A stretch of 33,925 bases of DNA, taken from the IMG/VR virus record IMGVR_UViG_3300028610_000992, positions 1-33,925 of that record, one strand, 5' to 3'. The notes beneath the pieces were generated by a model that saw nothing but the letters and a program-made list of their open reading frames with translations, was not told where the DNA came from and made no database searches. The translations under genes and the position numbers were made by a program. Shown in pieces: positions 9,878-24,999 of this stretch (position 1 is the first letter of the stretch; each line of letters begins with the position of its first letter). The DNA is from a virus.

Positions 9878-10177
9878 CTACTTGTCCTGATTGACATAGT
9901 CCGGTGTTGCATCGCCCTCTTCTTCGCCATCTCCGTCTGCTTTAACGCATTCAATGTACTTTTCCAAGTGGTGCCTCGCCTTCTCCAAGTCGTCAAGGAG
10001 GGGCAAACCACGCGGACCCTTCTTCCTCCAAATGTACTTTGATATACAATACTGGAACTGATTAAAGCCAAAGGCCCAAGAAACATCCCAATGCTCAAGA
10101 AGATGACCACAGCTAGGGCAGGGAGCTGCCGTGTCTTTATAGTGCTGTCCTCCGACTTGCCTTTCATTTGCTGCCAT
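9878..10177 (-). CDS. DUF3310 family protein (nucleotide kinase-like annotation)
   Basis: 99 residues from an ATG at 10177, preceded by GGAGG at 7-base spacing. The DUF3310 pattern is clear: NERQVGGQHYK at the start, HWDVSWAFGFNQFQYCISKYIWR in the middle, then DDLEKARHHLEKYIECV. This family is common in phages; some members carry a nucleotide kinase-like label, but its activity is not established. Unusual is the insert PCPSCGH before HWDV, a CxxC pair that suggests metal binding; family members normally have only a few residues there. The tail is acidic (DGDGEEEGD). It is the last gene of the minus-strand block. Confidence 0.8.
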   Translation of the reverse strand: MAANERQVGGQHYKDTAAPCPSCGHLLEHWDVSWAFGFNQFQYCISKYIWRKKGPRGLPLLDDLEKARHHLEKYIECVKADGDGEEEGDATPDYVNQDK

Positions 10178-10208
10178 TGCCTTCCCTCCAGGATGCATCC
10201 CCATTTGC

Positions 10209-10416: not shown

Positions 10417-11385
10417 CTAATTATATTTTTTCCTTTCAATGCGCCTTGTCTCCCAGTCCCAACAAGCTCTATGCCAGTCAGAAGCTACAATCTCCTCAAT
10501 ATATTCGTACCTGTTTGGACGATCTATGTAGGCCATTTTGATAGGCCATGCGACATGCTGTATCCATGGGCAGCGGAAAACACTTTCCCCATCAAGGAAA
10601 CGAACACAATCCTCCATAAATTCAACATGAGTACAGTCTGTCAGCAGGGCCATGTGGTCCCCCACCCTTTGTTCCCCCTTGTACATGTCTACGTCCAGGG
10701 TTGTTTTGATAATATCCTCATAACGGGGGACGTTAGTGTAGATGTGGCAGTTATTACTGAACACATGATACTGCCCTAGTTTCAAGACAGCAGCGGAAGC
10801 TATAAGCTCCTGTAGCATTGTCATGTGTACCACGTTCGCGCCCAGCATCCCCCAAATAAAATCATTGCTCCGGTTACACACTGTCATATTAAGGCAGTCA
10901 GTTTCGTCTACTCTGAAGTATATGTGAGTATTACATGGTCGGTCTGAGGTCTGGGCTCCTGGTCCGTCGTGTACGACGTCCCACATGGACAGTACAGCTT
11001 GACGTGTACCGGGGGACTGGCGGAGAAGATCAATGACTTGGGTAATTTGATAGATAGGGTTCGCCCATCGGTATCCATAAGCGCCTCGCAGTATTCCATT
11101 ATCACTATACTCCATCATTCTGCTATTAAATTGGCTTATCCACTCAGCGTCGTTAGACCCTGCCATCATCCAAACAAATTCCATACAGTGGAAAAACGGG
11201 TTAACTCTTCTGACAGGGCAGTTGAGCAGACGCTCCTCAGGAAATTGTATGGTTAGGAATATCGGAGCCGGCATTACCATCGCAGCTCCTACCCTAGTAT
11301 GTTCCATTAGGGAGCATGTACGGAACATCTGTAGCCCTTCTACGTATGCTTGAGGCGCGTTTCGCCCTGTTATTTCTATAATCAC
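10417..11385 (-). CDS. Thymidylate synthase-like enzyme (TS or dUMP hydroxymethylase)
   Basis: 322 residues, GTG start at 11385 with AAGGGG 9 bases upstream. The family marks are NPFFHCMEFVWMMAGSND (62-79), GAYGYRWANP (101-110), RQAVLSMWDVVHDG (128-141), the catalytic block DRPCNTHIYFRV with Cys151, and NRSNDFIWGMLGANVVH (171-187). Cys151 would attack dUMP, and Asn184 matches the Asn that favours dUMP over dCMP in ThyA-type enzymes. Cys151 is followed by Asn, not the His of bacterial ThyA. From sequence alone it could methylate dUMP to dTMP or hydroxymethylate it to 5-hydroxymethyl-dUMP. The neighbouring HMUDK_hel and TAGT genes favour the second reaction; that is inference. Confidence 0.85.
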   Translation of the reverse strand: MIIEITGRNAPQAYVEGLQMFRTCSLMEHTRVGAAMVMPAPIFLTIQFPEERLLNCPVRRVNPFFHCMEFVWMMAGSNDAEWISQFNSRMMEYSDNGILRGAYGYRWANPIYQITQVIDLLRQSPGTRQAVLSMWDVVHDGPGAQTSDRPCNTHIYFRVDETDCLNMTVCNRSNDFIWGMLGANVVHMTMLQELIASAAVLKLGQYHVFSNNCHIYTNVPRYEDIIKTTLDVDMYKGEQRVGDHMALLTDCTHVEFMEDCVRFLDGESVFRCPWIQHVAWPIKMAYIDRPNRYEYIEEIVASDWHRACWDWETRRIERKKYN

Positions 11386-11403
11386 GCGTGTAACCCCTTG
11401 TTT

Positions 11404-11432
11404 TATATAACATTTTAACCTAAGCCCGTCTA
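11404..11432 (-). promoter_or_regulatory. Candidate promoter for the ThyA-like gene
   Basis: Minus strand: TAGACG (11427-11432), 17-base spacer, TATATA (11404-11409), inside the 129-base gap before the ThyA-like gene. -35 match is 4 of 6. The gap also holds a small hairpin (TGGCT/AGCCA around 11433-11451) without a T-run. No tRNA or small gene was found there. Confidence 0.35.
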
Positions 11433-11514
11433 CTGGCTGAATAATAAAGCCATGCCTAGCTATTGCCCGGTATGCGATCTACCGTCGACAGGCGTCTGAC
11501 ACGGCCATATTAGC

Positions 11515-12381
11515 TCAATAGGCCGCATATTTGCGCTTACTCCGGCCAGTGCCGGTTAGAACGCGACAATACTTGTCGAACTCGCACATACAGTTCTGTA
11601 GGTCCTGCATACACATTGTGAAGTATGGCTCCCCCAAGCGGTTTTCAATATCGCTCTTAACATCTTCTATAGCTTCCTGATACAGAGATTCTGTAATCTT
11701 CCTATGGTGATACCAGGATAACCCCCGGAGACTTCCTGGCCCCGGAGCACTGAAGTACATCCAATCAGGGGCTGCTTCTAAAGGGTGGCCTTTCGTATTT
11801 TTAAGGTCTGCTACAATCTGGGCGGAGAGGAAGCTGCCAAGGCCATCCACCCGTTTGAACCAATGCCAGTAATCTTCGCAGTTAGGCTGGCAGGATGCTG
11901 GTGTAATATCTATCACCTTTTGCAGTACCTCTACGCAATAGTCTACTTTAGACATCTTGCGCCCATGCGTAGTAATGAGGTATGCCCCTCCCCAGACTTT
12001 ATCCCCACGCTCTTGGCGTTTAGTCAGTACGTCCCATAGCTTCGTATGGGGGGAAGGTACTAGACTAAATTTTATTTCCGCAAGGGTTTCGGGCCAATTA
12101 AAGAGACGCCCCGCGACAACAGCAACTTCATAGTAGTCTCCGAACGTATCCGGAGTATAGTTTTCCCGGAGCCATCGCGTAACACGATCGTCCTCCCTGT
12201 GAACGTTGCAGAAATACGTCCGTTGGAATACCAAATCTTCGCTCCATGGTCGCTTATCACCACGTTCCTTTTTAACACGAATCCTCTCCCGTTCAGATAT
12301 CCAGTAGGCCAGCAGCTCCGGCCTTGTATAGTGCCTTCCATTGACCTCTAAAGTCAACTCGCTTACCTCCCAACCATCCAT
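11515..12381 (-). CDS. Putative DNA base hypermodification protein (HMUDK_hel / aGPT-Pplase type)
   Basis: 288 residues; ATG at 12381 with GGAGG 6 bases upstream. The layout matches proteins annotated as putative DNA base hypermodification protein (5-hmdU DNA kinase helical domain, PF18723; aGPT-Pplase of Iyer and colleagues): ISERERIRVKKERGDKRPWS (28-47), RTYFCNVHREDDRVTRWLREN (54-74), a central helical part with RLFNWPETL, GLGSFLSAQIVADLKN, then PDWMYFSAPGPGSLRGLS and the end QDLQNCMCEFDKYCRV. Family members act on 5-hydroxymethyluracil in DNA, helping to install phosphorylated or amino-linked groups. There is no P-loop kinase domain here. It overlaps the TAGT gene by 89 bases. Confidence 0.8.
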   Translation of the reverse strand: MDGWEVSELTLEVNGRHYTRPELLAYWISERERIRVKKERGDKRPWSEDLVFQRTYFCNVHREDDRVTRWLRENYTPDTFGDYYEVAVVAGRLFNWPETLAEIKFSLVPSPHTKLWDVLTKRQERGDKVWGGAYLITTHGRKMSKVDYCVEVLQKVIDITPASCQPNCEDYWHWFKRVDGLGSFLSAQIVADLKNTKGHPLEAAPDWMYFSAPGPGSLRGLSWYHHRKITESLYQEAIEDVKSDIENRLGEPYFTMCMQDLQNCMCEFDKYCRVLTGTGRSKRKYAAY

Positions 12382-13093
12382 CTTTTGCCTCCTTTTCTAC
12401 AGCTTTGATGTAAGGCCCGAAGCGTTCTTCTAGCCAGTAGCAGGCTTCAGCTTGCATTTCGGGTGTTCGGTATAGGCTGCACCCTCCGGGCGCGTTGCAA
12501 CTCCCCCAATCCTGGAAGAAGGTAGTAATGATCTTATTGCCTTGACCTCTTGCTAGTAGGGTGGCATTGAGTACCACGTCAGAAAGAATAGGAAACTTAG
12601 CAAGATCAGGAATTGTACCAGCCAGCCTACGATTAATTCCCTGGACACAGATAACTTTCCCATTTTCATTAAAAGGTGGCTTCTGAACATGGCCCATTTG
12701 TCGGGGGTGGACGCCCACGAGTGCTGTGTCTTCAAGTAATATCTCCATAAAGCCAAAGAGGGTCAGCAGGCGTTCACATTCACTCCCTGCTAGAGTTTTA
12801 AGTGTGAAGCCAGTCTTACTATTTTCCTTCATAACTTGGTGGCTGAATACAAGGTCATCATCTAAAATGCAGCAACATTCCTTTCCATCACCCATACCGT
12901 CTTGTAAGATCCATTGCATTTTCTGGCTGTAGTTGGTGACGGTAAAGGGAGCAGCAATAGTCGGAATCTTGCCGTGTAATTCCTCTTCTTCCTGGGGTAC
13001 TACGAGCCAGCATTTGTCCCGCCATGAATAAGGTATGCTTTCGTAAGTTCGCTGCGCTCCAACTCTACCACGTGTCATTATGTATAAGTTCAT
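12293..13093 (-). CDS. TAGT-type glycosyltransferase (DNA base modification)
   Basis: 266 residues from the ATG at 13093 (GGGGA 6 bases upstream; a TTG at 13108 is an alternative). It shows a small GT-A-like glycosyltransferase layout: MNLYIMTRGRVGAQRTYESI at the start (R-G-R motif), WLVVPQEEEEL, then KMQWIL and the DxD-like ILDDDLVFS (Asp78-80) for metal and nucleotide sugar binding, followed by an ARGQGNKIITTFFQDWGSCN segment. This pattern fits the TET/JBP-associated glycosyltransferases (TAGT) described by Iyer and colleagues in modified-DNA gene clusters. It likely adds a sugar or related group to hydroxymethylated pyrimidines in DNA. The sugar donor and the exact target are unknown. Confidence 0.72.
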   Translation of the reverse strand: MNLYIMTRGRVGAQRTYESIPYSWRDKCWLVVPQEEEELHGKIPTIAAPFTVTNYSQKMQWILQDGMGDGKECCCILDDDLVFSHQVMKENSKTGFTLKTLAGSECERLLTLFGFMEILLEDTALVGVHPRQMGHVQKPPFNENGKVICVQGINRRLAGTIPDLAKFPILSDVVLNATLLARGQGNKIITTFFQDWGSCNAPGGCSLYRTPEMQAEACYWLEERFGPYIKAVEKEAKDGWLGGKRVDFRGQWKALYKAGAAGLLDI

Positions 13094-13102
13094 AATCTTT
13101 CC

Positions 13103-13145
13103 CCACAAACAAAACGAGCTCCGATCACAAAGTAACCGAAGCTCG
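13103..13145 (-). terminator. Rho-independent terminator before the hypermodification genes
   Basis: On the minus strand CGAGCTTCG pairs with CGGAGCTCG (9 pairs, one mismatch) around a 13-base loop (13115-13145), followed by TTTTGTTTG. It ends the small basic protein gene at 13151 and lies just upstream of the TAGT start at 13093, so hypermodification genes would depend on readthrough or a promoter I did not find. Confidence 0.7.
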
Positions 13146-22905: not shown

Positions 22906-24999
22906 GTGGCAACGACTCCCTTTTCCTTTACGGACTTCAATGAGCAACTAGAGTACTTAACGGAAAGGGGAATTGATGAAATAACTGTGAAGCGGCTAGG
23001 GCTTGAAGTTAAGACCTCCACATGGCTGCATGAGCAGGGGTTCCCAAAAGTACCAGGACTTAGTCGTGGTATAGTGTGGAGGCTACGTGACCCCGAGGGC
23101 GTCGCCACGGGCAAGCTCGGGGCTCGCGTATTCTACCAGCAAGGCATCGTACCCAATACCGACAAGCCTAAGTTCCTACCACCGAAGGGCCAAGTTCCTG
23201 GCCTATATTTCAGCCCACTAAGTCCCTGGGATAAACTGGAGTATAATGACAAAGTATATATCTGTGAGTCCTACCTAAAAGCAGATATCTGCGCCATGCT
23301 TGGGTTCCATGCCATTGGCGTGAGCGGATGCTGGGGCTGGTCATATATGAACAAACTAAACTGGGATTTCAAACTGCTGCCGTGGCATGACCTACGCCTT
23401 CAACCTATCGTGTGCATGGATTCAAATGTATGTGAAGCCAACCCAAAGCTCTGGCTGGCAGCTCGCAAACTATCAGCAAGCATGGAAGTAGAATATCAGG
23501 TCCACGCCAGCATTTTAGTCCTTCCACCCCCAAAGGAGGGCCAGTGGGGACTAGATGATTACTATGCGAAGTTTGGTAGGGATGCTACACAGGACTATCT
23601 ACATGGGGAGCCGGAACCCCTTCCAAGCGCGATGTCGGACCACTTAAAGATAATGGCACAGGAAGTATGTTGGTGTGACCAACTCGCCATGTGCATAAGG
23701 ATATCGGATGGCCTGCTAATGTCACGCGGTAATTTTGAATCAGGACATTATGCTGACAGGCAGGTATGGAACGAAGACGGTAAGCCTGTTCCTGTTGCTA
23801 AGACATATATGAAATGGCCCGAGCGCACAGTGGTCAACGACTATGTGTACCTTCCCGGCCAGCCTCGGTTAATTACCGAAGGGCGTGGGTCCTATAATGC
23901 GTGGGAAGGCATGGGCTGTGAACCACTGGCTGCTGATGTCTCCCTATTTACCGATTGGCTGGAGCTTGTATTTACAGAGCAAGAGCGGGAATATATCTTA
24001 GACTGGTGGGCATGGCAGCTCCAGAATCTAGGTGGTAAGCTCACTACAGGGCTGGTGATGGTAGGTCCACCGGGCATTGGGAAGGGCTGGGTGACTGCCA
24101 TATTCACGCGCATATTTGGGAACAAGAACGTAGCCAGTGTTCCCCTTACAGTGCTTGAAAAGAACTTTAACGCGGAAGTGGCGACCCGGCAGTTATTCGT
24201 TGTGGAGGAGACTGATGAAGTCGGTGGCAACAACCAGCTCGTGTACAACAAGCTGAAGGATATGATAACGAACCCCATATTGCGGTTGGAAAAGAAAGGT
24301 GTTGACGCCATATTTATTGACAATAGGCTGAACGTATTTCTAACAGGGAACCAAGTGGGGATATTTAAGCTGGACGCCAACGACCGTAGGTTCTATGTAG
24401 CTGAATGTGTGGAACCGGATAGCATGATTGCTGTCGCCAATTCCCAGTCATTTTGGGAGCACCGATGGGAGTGGCTGGACGCCGGTGGCGCAGAAGCGAT
24501 ATATGGCTATCTACTTAGCAGAGATCTCGCGCACTTTAACCCGAAGGGCATGGCCCCAATGACCGGCGCTAAGAAGGATATGATAGAACTGACCCACACC
24601 ACATTGGATCTCTGGGTGCAGCAACTCATTAGTGACCCTGAAGCTGTGCTGGTAGCAGGACATAGTGAAGTAGACGGATGCGTGGCCACCGCGAAAGAGC
24701 TCCTGTGGTTATATAAGGAAGGTCACGTGCGGCTGTGCGATTTAGACCGTGGTGATGTGAATGGCATGAATAGAGCATTAAAGAATGCTCGCGTGGAACT
24801 GGCCAATAGCGGGAACAAGATTAAGGTGGCTGGCTACCCGGCTCGTTATTTCATTATCCGGCCCACCCCACCGAGTGTCTTGAGTTGGGCTGCTTTAGTG
24901 ACAGATAGGGTGTTTTGGCAGAGGTTGGTAGCCAGCGAGCAGGGAAATGGTAGCCAGACAGAAGGTACTGGCTACCCCGACTCGAGTAAGAAATACTAA
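22906..24999 (+). CDS. Primase-helicase: N-terminal DUF3854/TOPRIM-like, C-terminal SF3 (DUF5906-type) helicase
   Basis: 697 residues; GTG start with AGGAG 6 bases upstream. The N-terminal half has VYICESYLKADICAMLGFHA (Glu121) then IVCMDSNVCE (Asp172), the DUF3854 TOPRIM-like pattern. The C-terminal half is an SF3-type ATPase, GLVMVGPPGIGKGWVTAIFT with Walker A GPPGIGKG (387-394), VVEETDEV (Walker B, 432-439) and an arginine-rich end. Such proteins replace separate primase and helicase in many phages and prime or unwind at the origin. Motifs look complete. The last 60 bases of the gene and the downstream gap hold GGTAGCCAG iterons, so the origin may begin inside it. Confidence 0.85.
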   Translation: MATTPFSFTDFNEQLEYLTERGIDEITVKRLGLEVKTSTWLHEQGFPKVPGLSRGIVWRLRDPEGVATGKLGARVFYQQGIVPNTDKPKFLPPKGQVPGLYFSPLSPWDKLEYNDKVYICESYLKADICAMLGFHAIGVSGCWGWSYMNKLNWDFKLLPWHDLRLQPIVCMDSNVCEANPKLWLAARKLSASMEVEYQVHASILVLPPPKEGQWGLDDYYAKFGRDATQDYLHGEPEPLPSAMSDHLKIMAQEVCWCDQLAMCIRISDGLLMSRGNFESGHYADRQVWNEDGKPVPVAKTYMKWPERTVVNDYVYLPGQPRLITEGRGSYNAWEGMGCEPLAADVSLFTDWLELVFTEQEREYILDWWAWQLQNLGGKLTTGLVMVGPPGIGKGWVTAIFTRIFGNKNVASVPLTVLEKNFNAEVATRQLFVVEETDEVGGNNQLVYNKLKDMITNPILRLEKKGVDAIFIDNRLNVFLTGNQVGIFKLDANDRRFYVAECVEPDSMIAVANSQSFWEHRWEWLDAGGAEAIYGYLLSRDLAHFNPKGMAPMTGAKKDMIELTHTTLDLWVQQLISDPEAVLVAGHSEVDGCVATAKELLWLYKEGHVRLCDLDRGDVNGMNRALKNARVELANSGNKIKVAGYPARYFIIRPTPPSVLSWAALVTDRVFWQRLVASEQGNGSQTEGTGYPDSSKKY

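Follow-up and report, generated by a model that had tools for sequence, protein, structure and literature searches.

The 33,925-nucleotide DNA of an uncultured phage analysed here, the entire IMG/VR virus record IMGVR_UViG_3300028610_000992 (hereafter, the window), carries on its minus strand three genes that, judged from their sequences, form a thymidine hypermodification cassette in which a glycosyltransferase takes the place of the kinase. Head to tail in the order of transcription, they encode a putative TAGT-type glycosyltransferase (GT), a helical protein of Pfam family PF18723 (HEL) and a thymidylate synthase-like (TS-like) enzyme, and all three open reading frames (ORFs) are intact. 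We consider it likely that this module replaces thymine with 5-hydroxymethyluracil (5-hmU) and then glycosylates it in DNA. The cluster is not a chance arrangement, since the order GT, HEL, TS is kept in 16/16 related IMG/VR contigs (L012 begins within HEL and L028 within GT) and the genes are under purifying selection, with dN/dS of about 0.06-0.20 in non-saturated comparisons; the three adjacent minus-strand genes described in an earlier note on this DNA are confirmed.

The TS-like enzyme carries the residue signature of a dUMP hydroxymethylase and is predicted to be a dUMP 5-hydroxymethylase. In the TS family, Asn versus Asp at the base-discriminating position separates uracil from cytosine enzymes. 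The window protein matches PF00303 (E 7.9e-20), and its best PHROG is the thymidylate-synthase family phrog_5131 (E 4.6e-76), to which gp58 of Pseudomonas phage M6 also belongs; it scores far under the NCBIfam TS cut-offs. Aligned with E. coli ThyA, T4 gp42, SPO1 gp29 and M6 gp58, C151 corresponds to E. coli C146 and N184 to E. coli N177 (at the Asn/Asp position the T4 gp42 column is shifted by one and was not used), and the catalytic Cys and the uracil-type Asn are thus both present. Folate/hydride-pocket departures from thymidylate synthase are present as well; Asp148 replaces E. coli Leu143, as Asp also does in T4 gp42 and SPO1 gp29, and the lack of a counterpart of E. coli Trp80, the Asn in place of His147 and the missing TS C-terminal tail are all as in SPO1 gp29. 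Cys151 and Asn184, the residues singled out in the earlier note, are each found in 159/159 TS-like neighbours of HEL genes, and Asp148 in 158/159. The nearest relatives are annotated as dUMP-type hydroxymethylases of thymine-modifying phages, and the uracil-type signature lends support to the earlier suggestion that thymine is the modified base. Another member of the TS superfamily is reported to make 5-hydroxy-dCMP (PMC13390438), so the exact product may differ from 5-hmdUMP. Were the enzyme to make 5-hydroxymethyl-dCMP, the phage DNA would bear glycosylated cytosine like that of T4 and T6; the best-known TAGT enzymes (T2/T6) do act on glucosylated hydroxymethylcytosine (PMC13216743), and the closest PDB matches of the TS-like protein are CMP hydroxymethylases. 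CMP hydroxymethylase, however, has Asp opposite N184 (phmmer alignment), the discriminating Asn is invariant among the TS-like neighbours, the closest relatives are annotated as dUMP-type and SPO1 gp29 has the same signature. We rejected the dCMP hydroxymethylase reading because of the conserved Asn, and regard it as extremely improbable.

By sequence comparison and structural modelling, the GT is a divergent TAGT-family glycosyltransferase of the GT-A type, although it falls below the TAGT Pfam model, and it is predicted to add a sugar to 5-hmU in DNA. The only family that it matched was phrog_842, 'beta-glucosyl-HMC-alpha-glucosyltransferase' (E 7.6e-18), and it is 27% identical (E 3e-19) to gp40 of Brevibacterium phage LuckyBarnes, a member of the TAGT family PF20691. 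Its AlphaFold model (pLDDT 94.2) has a GT-A fold, and the re-aligned structure matches are UDP-sugar transferases, the best of them GalNAc-T2 (Z 14.4), which belongs to the UDP-GalNAc transferases. The DDD pattern recognised earlier lies at residues 83-85 and is of the metal type; in GTs beside HEL, D83 and D84 are each present in 119/119 and D85 in 117/119. It could be argued that only HEL and the TS-like enzyme make or handle 5-hmU and that the GT decorates another target, e.g. a protein or host lipopolysaccharide, as GT-A enzymes of similar general fold use many acceptors. We find this rather improbable, given that GT and HEL genes overlap in 61/68 adjacent pairs (median 89 nucleotides, with each ORF taken from its first start codon), that the GT repeatedly fills the slot held elsewhere by a DNA kinase, and that its group (phrog_842; TAGT = PF20691) includes the T6 DNA glucosyltransferase (PMC13216743). 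The overlap in the window is compatible with translational coupling, and the hairpin just upstream of GT would terminate the preceding gene, leaving GT-HEL-TS as a separate unit (Table 1). In other loci (L157-L161 and L168-L173), HEL is absent and a short, distant TS-like ORF is followed 0.4-0.7 kb downstream by a TAGT-like GT; these may be cytosine-type systems.

Table 1. Positions of the three genes and of associated features in the window
Feature	Position	Strand	Remarks
GT	12293..13093	-	ATG start; in-frame TTG start at 13108 likewise open; predicted divergent TAGT-type GT-A glycosyltransferase
HEL	11515..12381	-	288 aa; PF18723 (aGPT-PPlase1, Pfam name HMUDK_hel); all-helical, predicted DNA-glycosylase (HhH) superfamily fold
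TS-like	10417..11385	-	322 aa; GTG start; predicted dUMP 5-hydroxymethylase
Overlap of GT 3' end and HEL 5' end, 89 nucleotides	12293..12381	-	From ORF coordinates
Terminator-like hairpin just upstream of GT	13115..13145	-	14 pairs and T-rich tail; consensus scan only

The cassette of phage M6 and of Sphaerotilus phage SN1 comprises TS, HD, aGPT-PPlase1, P-loop kinase, radical SAM (rSAM), PLP enzyme and aGPT-PPlase2 genes, and the window resembles it in having homologous TS-like and HEL genes close together, near a PolA-type polymerase. M6, however, has a PF18748 kinase acting on 5-hydroxymethyldeoxyuridine (5-hmdU) in DNA (gp54), a PF18724 amino acid:DNA transferase (ADDT; gp51) and radical SAM and PLP genes in addition to its PF18723 protein (gp55), whereas the window phage is without kinase and ADDT and has the GT in the kinase's slot. 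Neither PF18748 nor PF18724 gave a match in the window record or in the 16 related contigs, and the same searches recover both families in M6, P26218, MW202557 and SKML-39. These results bear out two remarks of the earlier note, that the window holds no P-loop 5-hmdU kinase and that the chemistry may hence differ from known examples, which here means M6/ViI. The note had left the choice between a sugar-like and a phosphate-linked group; the sugar is favoured by the GT in the kinase's place and by the lack of any HEL locus with both, while the phosphate-linked group lost ground with the failure to detect PF18748 and PF18724.

In the M6/ViI route, 5-hmdU is phosphorylated and an amino acid or amine is attached, for which the window phage would draw a kinase from a missing part of the genome or from the host. 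HEL is homologous to M6 gp55 (28.5% identical), the Pfam name of its family is '5-hmdU DNA kinase, helical domain', and the window record is incomplete. It has no end repeats, and the 40.9-kb relative G004 aligns to it in two blocks; in G004, ~6.4 kb separates the positions that correspond to window 33925 and window 1, and ~6.4 kb is therefore absent from the record. The related contig G013 (41,350 bases), on the other hand, is probably complete because it has a 127-bp terminal repeat, and has neither gene, and GT and kinase are never found together beside HEL. With neither the PF18748 kinase nor ADDT detected by a search that finds the kinase in other phages, we rejected the kinase route as highly improbable.

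The exchange of kinase for glycosyltransferase is not confined to the window. Loci from HEL and GT profile searches were annotated with profiles built in this analysis, counting partners within 7 kb; this gave 170 distinct HEL proteins from viral contigs and phages, and as the set holds the best 80 loci per search, its frequencies are not population estimates. A TAGT-type GT was the partner in 118 cases, a GT-B-type GT in 10, both in 1 and the 5-hmdU DNA kinase in 31, with none detected in 10. Kinase and any GT were found together in 0/170 HEL loci, an absence that is consistent despite the best-80 sampling, and ADDT lies near 19/31 kinase loci and 0/129 GT or GT-B loci. When the neighbours of HEL are typed, 71 loci have GT upstream and TS downstream and 23 have kinase upstream and TS downstream; in 38, GT is downstream of HEL. 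In a rapid maximum-likelihood phylogeny of 168 HEL proteins, the label changes 8 times between kinase and GT, with at least 4 changes forced by starred branches, and all three labels give 17 changes, counts that are approximate as the tree has SH-aLRT support only and several long branches; a single kinase/GT switch is incompatible with it. The Pfam name of PF18723 is misleading in this respect, as it suggests part of a kinase, yet most sampled members adjoin glycosyltransferases, and the kinase is near HEL in neither the window nor its 16 relatives.

Some partner assignments are softer than others. The GT-B label stands for weak Pfam matches in L060 and L196 and, for the seeds L084, L111 and L112, for a reading of sequences that have no Pfam match. 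Some of the 10 loci in which no partner was detected hold other candidates, namely a weak PF20691 match in L265 and a GT4-like protein in L196, together with a GT-B-like fragment in L203 and a P-loop ORF in L253 that were seen by eye; L097, tallied under GT, has a clear PF20691 protein. In a search that was not exhaustive, no HEL-GT or HEL-kinase fusion was conspicuous in the annotated loci. In the viral contig L084 (12296-14685), PfkB, SIS, cytidylyltransferase-like and HAD genes lie close behind a putative GT-B-HEL-TS array, and from family knowledge these four would be the set expected for ADP-heptose synthesis. A PIG-L/LmbE-like deacetylase gene sits between a GT-B-like gene and HEL, with TS nearby, in L196 (8947-9507; match below the Pfam cut-off) and L203 (596-1144; above it), as would be expected for an amino sugar. 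Together, the heptose-type genes and the deacetylases support the view that the HEL-TS core may be used with different sugars.

The middle protein of the window was correctly placed by the earlier note: HEL matches PF18723 with E 6.2e-34 and 118.1 bits (curated cut-off 25) over positions 6-276 of the 281 in the profile. Structural comparison, which the note had proposed, yields the GT-A fold of GT and, through VIA-align, a putative DNA-glycosylase fold for HEL. By Foldseek alone HEL had no significant match, and PDB sequence searches with HEL and GT, and with the HEL profile, returned nothing significant; the fold came from VIA-align re-alignment of the HEL model (pLDDT 93.0). The best match (Z 11.7, 4.1 A over 217 residues) is the 5-PmdU glycinyltransferase PaMx11 gp46/PUGT; next come 8-oxoguanine DNA glycosylases, with Z about 9-10, and DUF2419. 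Nearly all top rows are DNA glycosylases, PUGT or DUF2419, at Z 5.6-11.7, and values under 13 are not strong for helical proteins, whose Z-scores are easily inflated. Profile-profile comparison of HEL with kinase and GT families detected no similarity, and that with ADDT a weak one over the HhH and the C-terminal motif (hhalign E 0.0013, probability 18%). Residues N59, R62, D65, D192, D206, G214, G216, G220, C266, E267 and K270 are conserved in at least 167/169 HEL proteins, whichever the partner, and on a motif reading D206 would lie near the catalytic Asp of HhH glycosylases. The model suggests that HEL has the fold of the HhH-GPD DNA glycosylase superfamily, and we predict that it binds and presents, or acts on, the modified base.

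In the mechanism that we propose, the TS-like enzyme would convert dUMP and methylene-tetrahydrofolate to 5-hydroxymethyl-dUMP, a step for which residues and phylogenetic placement were established and the chemistry is taken from family knowledge. The 5-hmdUMP would then be phosphorylated, probably by host kinases because no such kinase was recognised in the window, and the phage DNA polymerase would incorporate it. To go by its family, its fold and the gene replacement, the GT would next glycosylate the base in DNA at its 5-hydroxymethyl group, drawing on a nucleotide-sugar of the host that is probably a UDP-sugar; the product would be a phage relative of base J. Hydroxymethylation by the TS-like enzyme and sugar transfer by the GT we hold, jointly, to be quite likely. 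HEL, with its predicted fold, would bind the duplex and flip or position 5-hmU for its partner enzyme, GT in the window phage and kinase in M6-type phages; to this base-positioning role we give slightly less than an even chance. DNA so modified would resist host restriction. More tentatively still, and with the balance somewhat against it, PF18723 could be a general 5-hmU-DNA platform and not a kinase part, i.e. a base-flipping glycosylase-fold protein whose partner slot has been refilled repeatedly by unrelated enzymes (TAGT-type GT, several GT-B types and the 5-hmdU kinase).

It should be noted that several observations weigh against such a module. The window GT gave no match to PF20691 at E up to 1 (hmmscan) or up to 10 (six-frame genome search). 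Profile searches had been named in the earlier note as a possible refutation, and their outcome is mixed: the middle protein falls inside PF18723 and the window GT misses PF20691, though its aligned homologues match PF20691 in 55/66 cases and phrog_842 in 66/66. No sugar-nucleotide genes were found among the scanned window ORFs. The bacterial contigs L268, L269, L271, L272, L273 and L296 (Hyphomicrobiaceae, Hyphomonadaceae and related) contain HEL-TS pairs that have no GT or kinase beside them; the pairs may be domesticated or in another role. Searches of five bacterial genomes with such pairs found no PF18748 kinase, which the search does recover in M6 as its positive control, and no homologue of the GT alignment at any position. 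In L269, an ORF for a putative uracil-DNA glycosylase sits directly upstream of HEL-TS (a single case, read by eye). HEL is missing from phage MW202897, which has GT, TS and HD, and from P26218 and MW202557, which have kinase and ADDT. Given the bacterial pairs and MW202897, HEL is neither strictly tied to nor needed by GT, and loci with HEL-TS only, or with GT or kinase and no HEL, imply that HEL may have chemistry of its own. The best-80 sampling and the modest Z-scores belong to the same side, as does the invariant polar set of HEL, Asp206 included, with which the protein may be catalytic.

HEL itself might thus be a PUGT-like transferase or a DNA glycosylase whose substrate is hmU or the base already bearing its sugar, with a second group being added or exchanged. 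Such a catalyst would suit its top structural match to PUGT and the DNA glycosylases that follow, the weak ADDT profile similarity, the near invariance of D192, D206, C266, E267 and K270, and the bacterial pairs that lack GT and kinase. However, the partners switch among unrelated chemistries while the polar set stays constant, a pattern explained at least equally well by a shared task of handling DNA or the base, and the HEL-less kinase and ADDT loci of P26218 and MW202557 also speak against it; we regard catalysis by HEL as unlikely.

The proposed glycosylation of 5-hmU can be set beside several known systems. Nearest in gene content is the cultured phage LuckyBarnes, in which gp38-gp41 bring together TS, two TAGT genes and HEL, with no kinase or ADDT; it differs in its order (TS-GT-GT-HEL), its two GTs and its TS-like protein of 517 aa, and identity to the window is 25-29% for HEL, GT1 and TS. 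GT, TS ('pyrimidine hmase') and HD stand in a row in MW202897 (Manatee Spring), but no HEL gene is found anywhere in that record. HTVC023P-type pelagiphages have TS and aG/PT-PPlase1 near PolA, and several pelagiphage genomes also have beta-glucosyl-HMC-alpha-glucosyltransferase and deoxynucleotidase genes in the same region (PMC9599517); this arrangement, including a TAGT-type gene in some, is therefore already published. Unlike the window phage, those are marine SAR11 podoviruses, and PMC9599517 does not treat the region as a kinase-replacing sugar module. The predicted product is of the same type as base J of kinetoplastids (JBP and JGT), glucosylated 5-hydroxymethyluracil in DNA (PMC6449724), but base J arises by oxidation of thymine within the DNA, whereas the window phage is predicted to hydroxymethylate at the dUMP stage. 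Glucosylated 5-hmdU is described as not reported in phages (PMC6449724). Phages with glycosylated thymine derivatives in their DNA are already known, since the SP-15 derivative bears glucosyl and phosphoglucuronolactone residues (PMC5977210). With T6 TAGT (PF20691) the window GT shares a superfamily (phrog_842) and the GT-A fold, but the T6 enzyme adds a second glucose to glucosyl-hmC and needs a first glucosyltransferase, whereas the window has one GT with a uracil-type hydroxymethylase; the T6 study classes TAGT as GT-A and lists solitary TAGT homologues in 288/753 phage genomes, with their role unknown there (PMC13216743).

A nucleotide-level search of the phage collection revealed no relatives of the cluster. 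The 12.2-kb contig L012 (IMGVR_UViG_3300009788_000545) is 99.6-100% identical to the window across 16 genes, most of them at 100%, and the two are one virus population. In 3/16 related contigs an HD-domain gene directly follows TS (L024:12573-13205, L025:5175-5705 and L026:10184-10714), a gene lost or absent in the window. Downstream of TS, the window has a small gene at 9878-10204 with a DUF3310-like motif seen by eye and no Pfam match, and ORFs resembling it come after TS or HD in HEL loci L060, L094, L097, L111, L112 and L265. Further along, 22906-24999 encodes a primase-like protein in which DUF5906 was recognised, along with a weak VapE-like match.

Modules of this kind predict that base-J-like phage DNA is widespread, with several possible sugars. 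They also change the role expected of PF18723, a family that is named after a kinase domain and found mostly beside glycosyltransferases, and should the platform reading be true, phages would swap thymine decorations by exchanging one gene. The prediction can be tested immediately in LuckyBarnes, which is in culture and has the same gene set. If confirmed, the enzymes may also prove useful for labelling or detecting 5-hmU in DNA.

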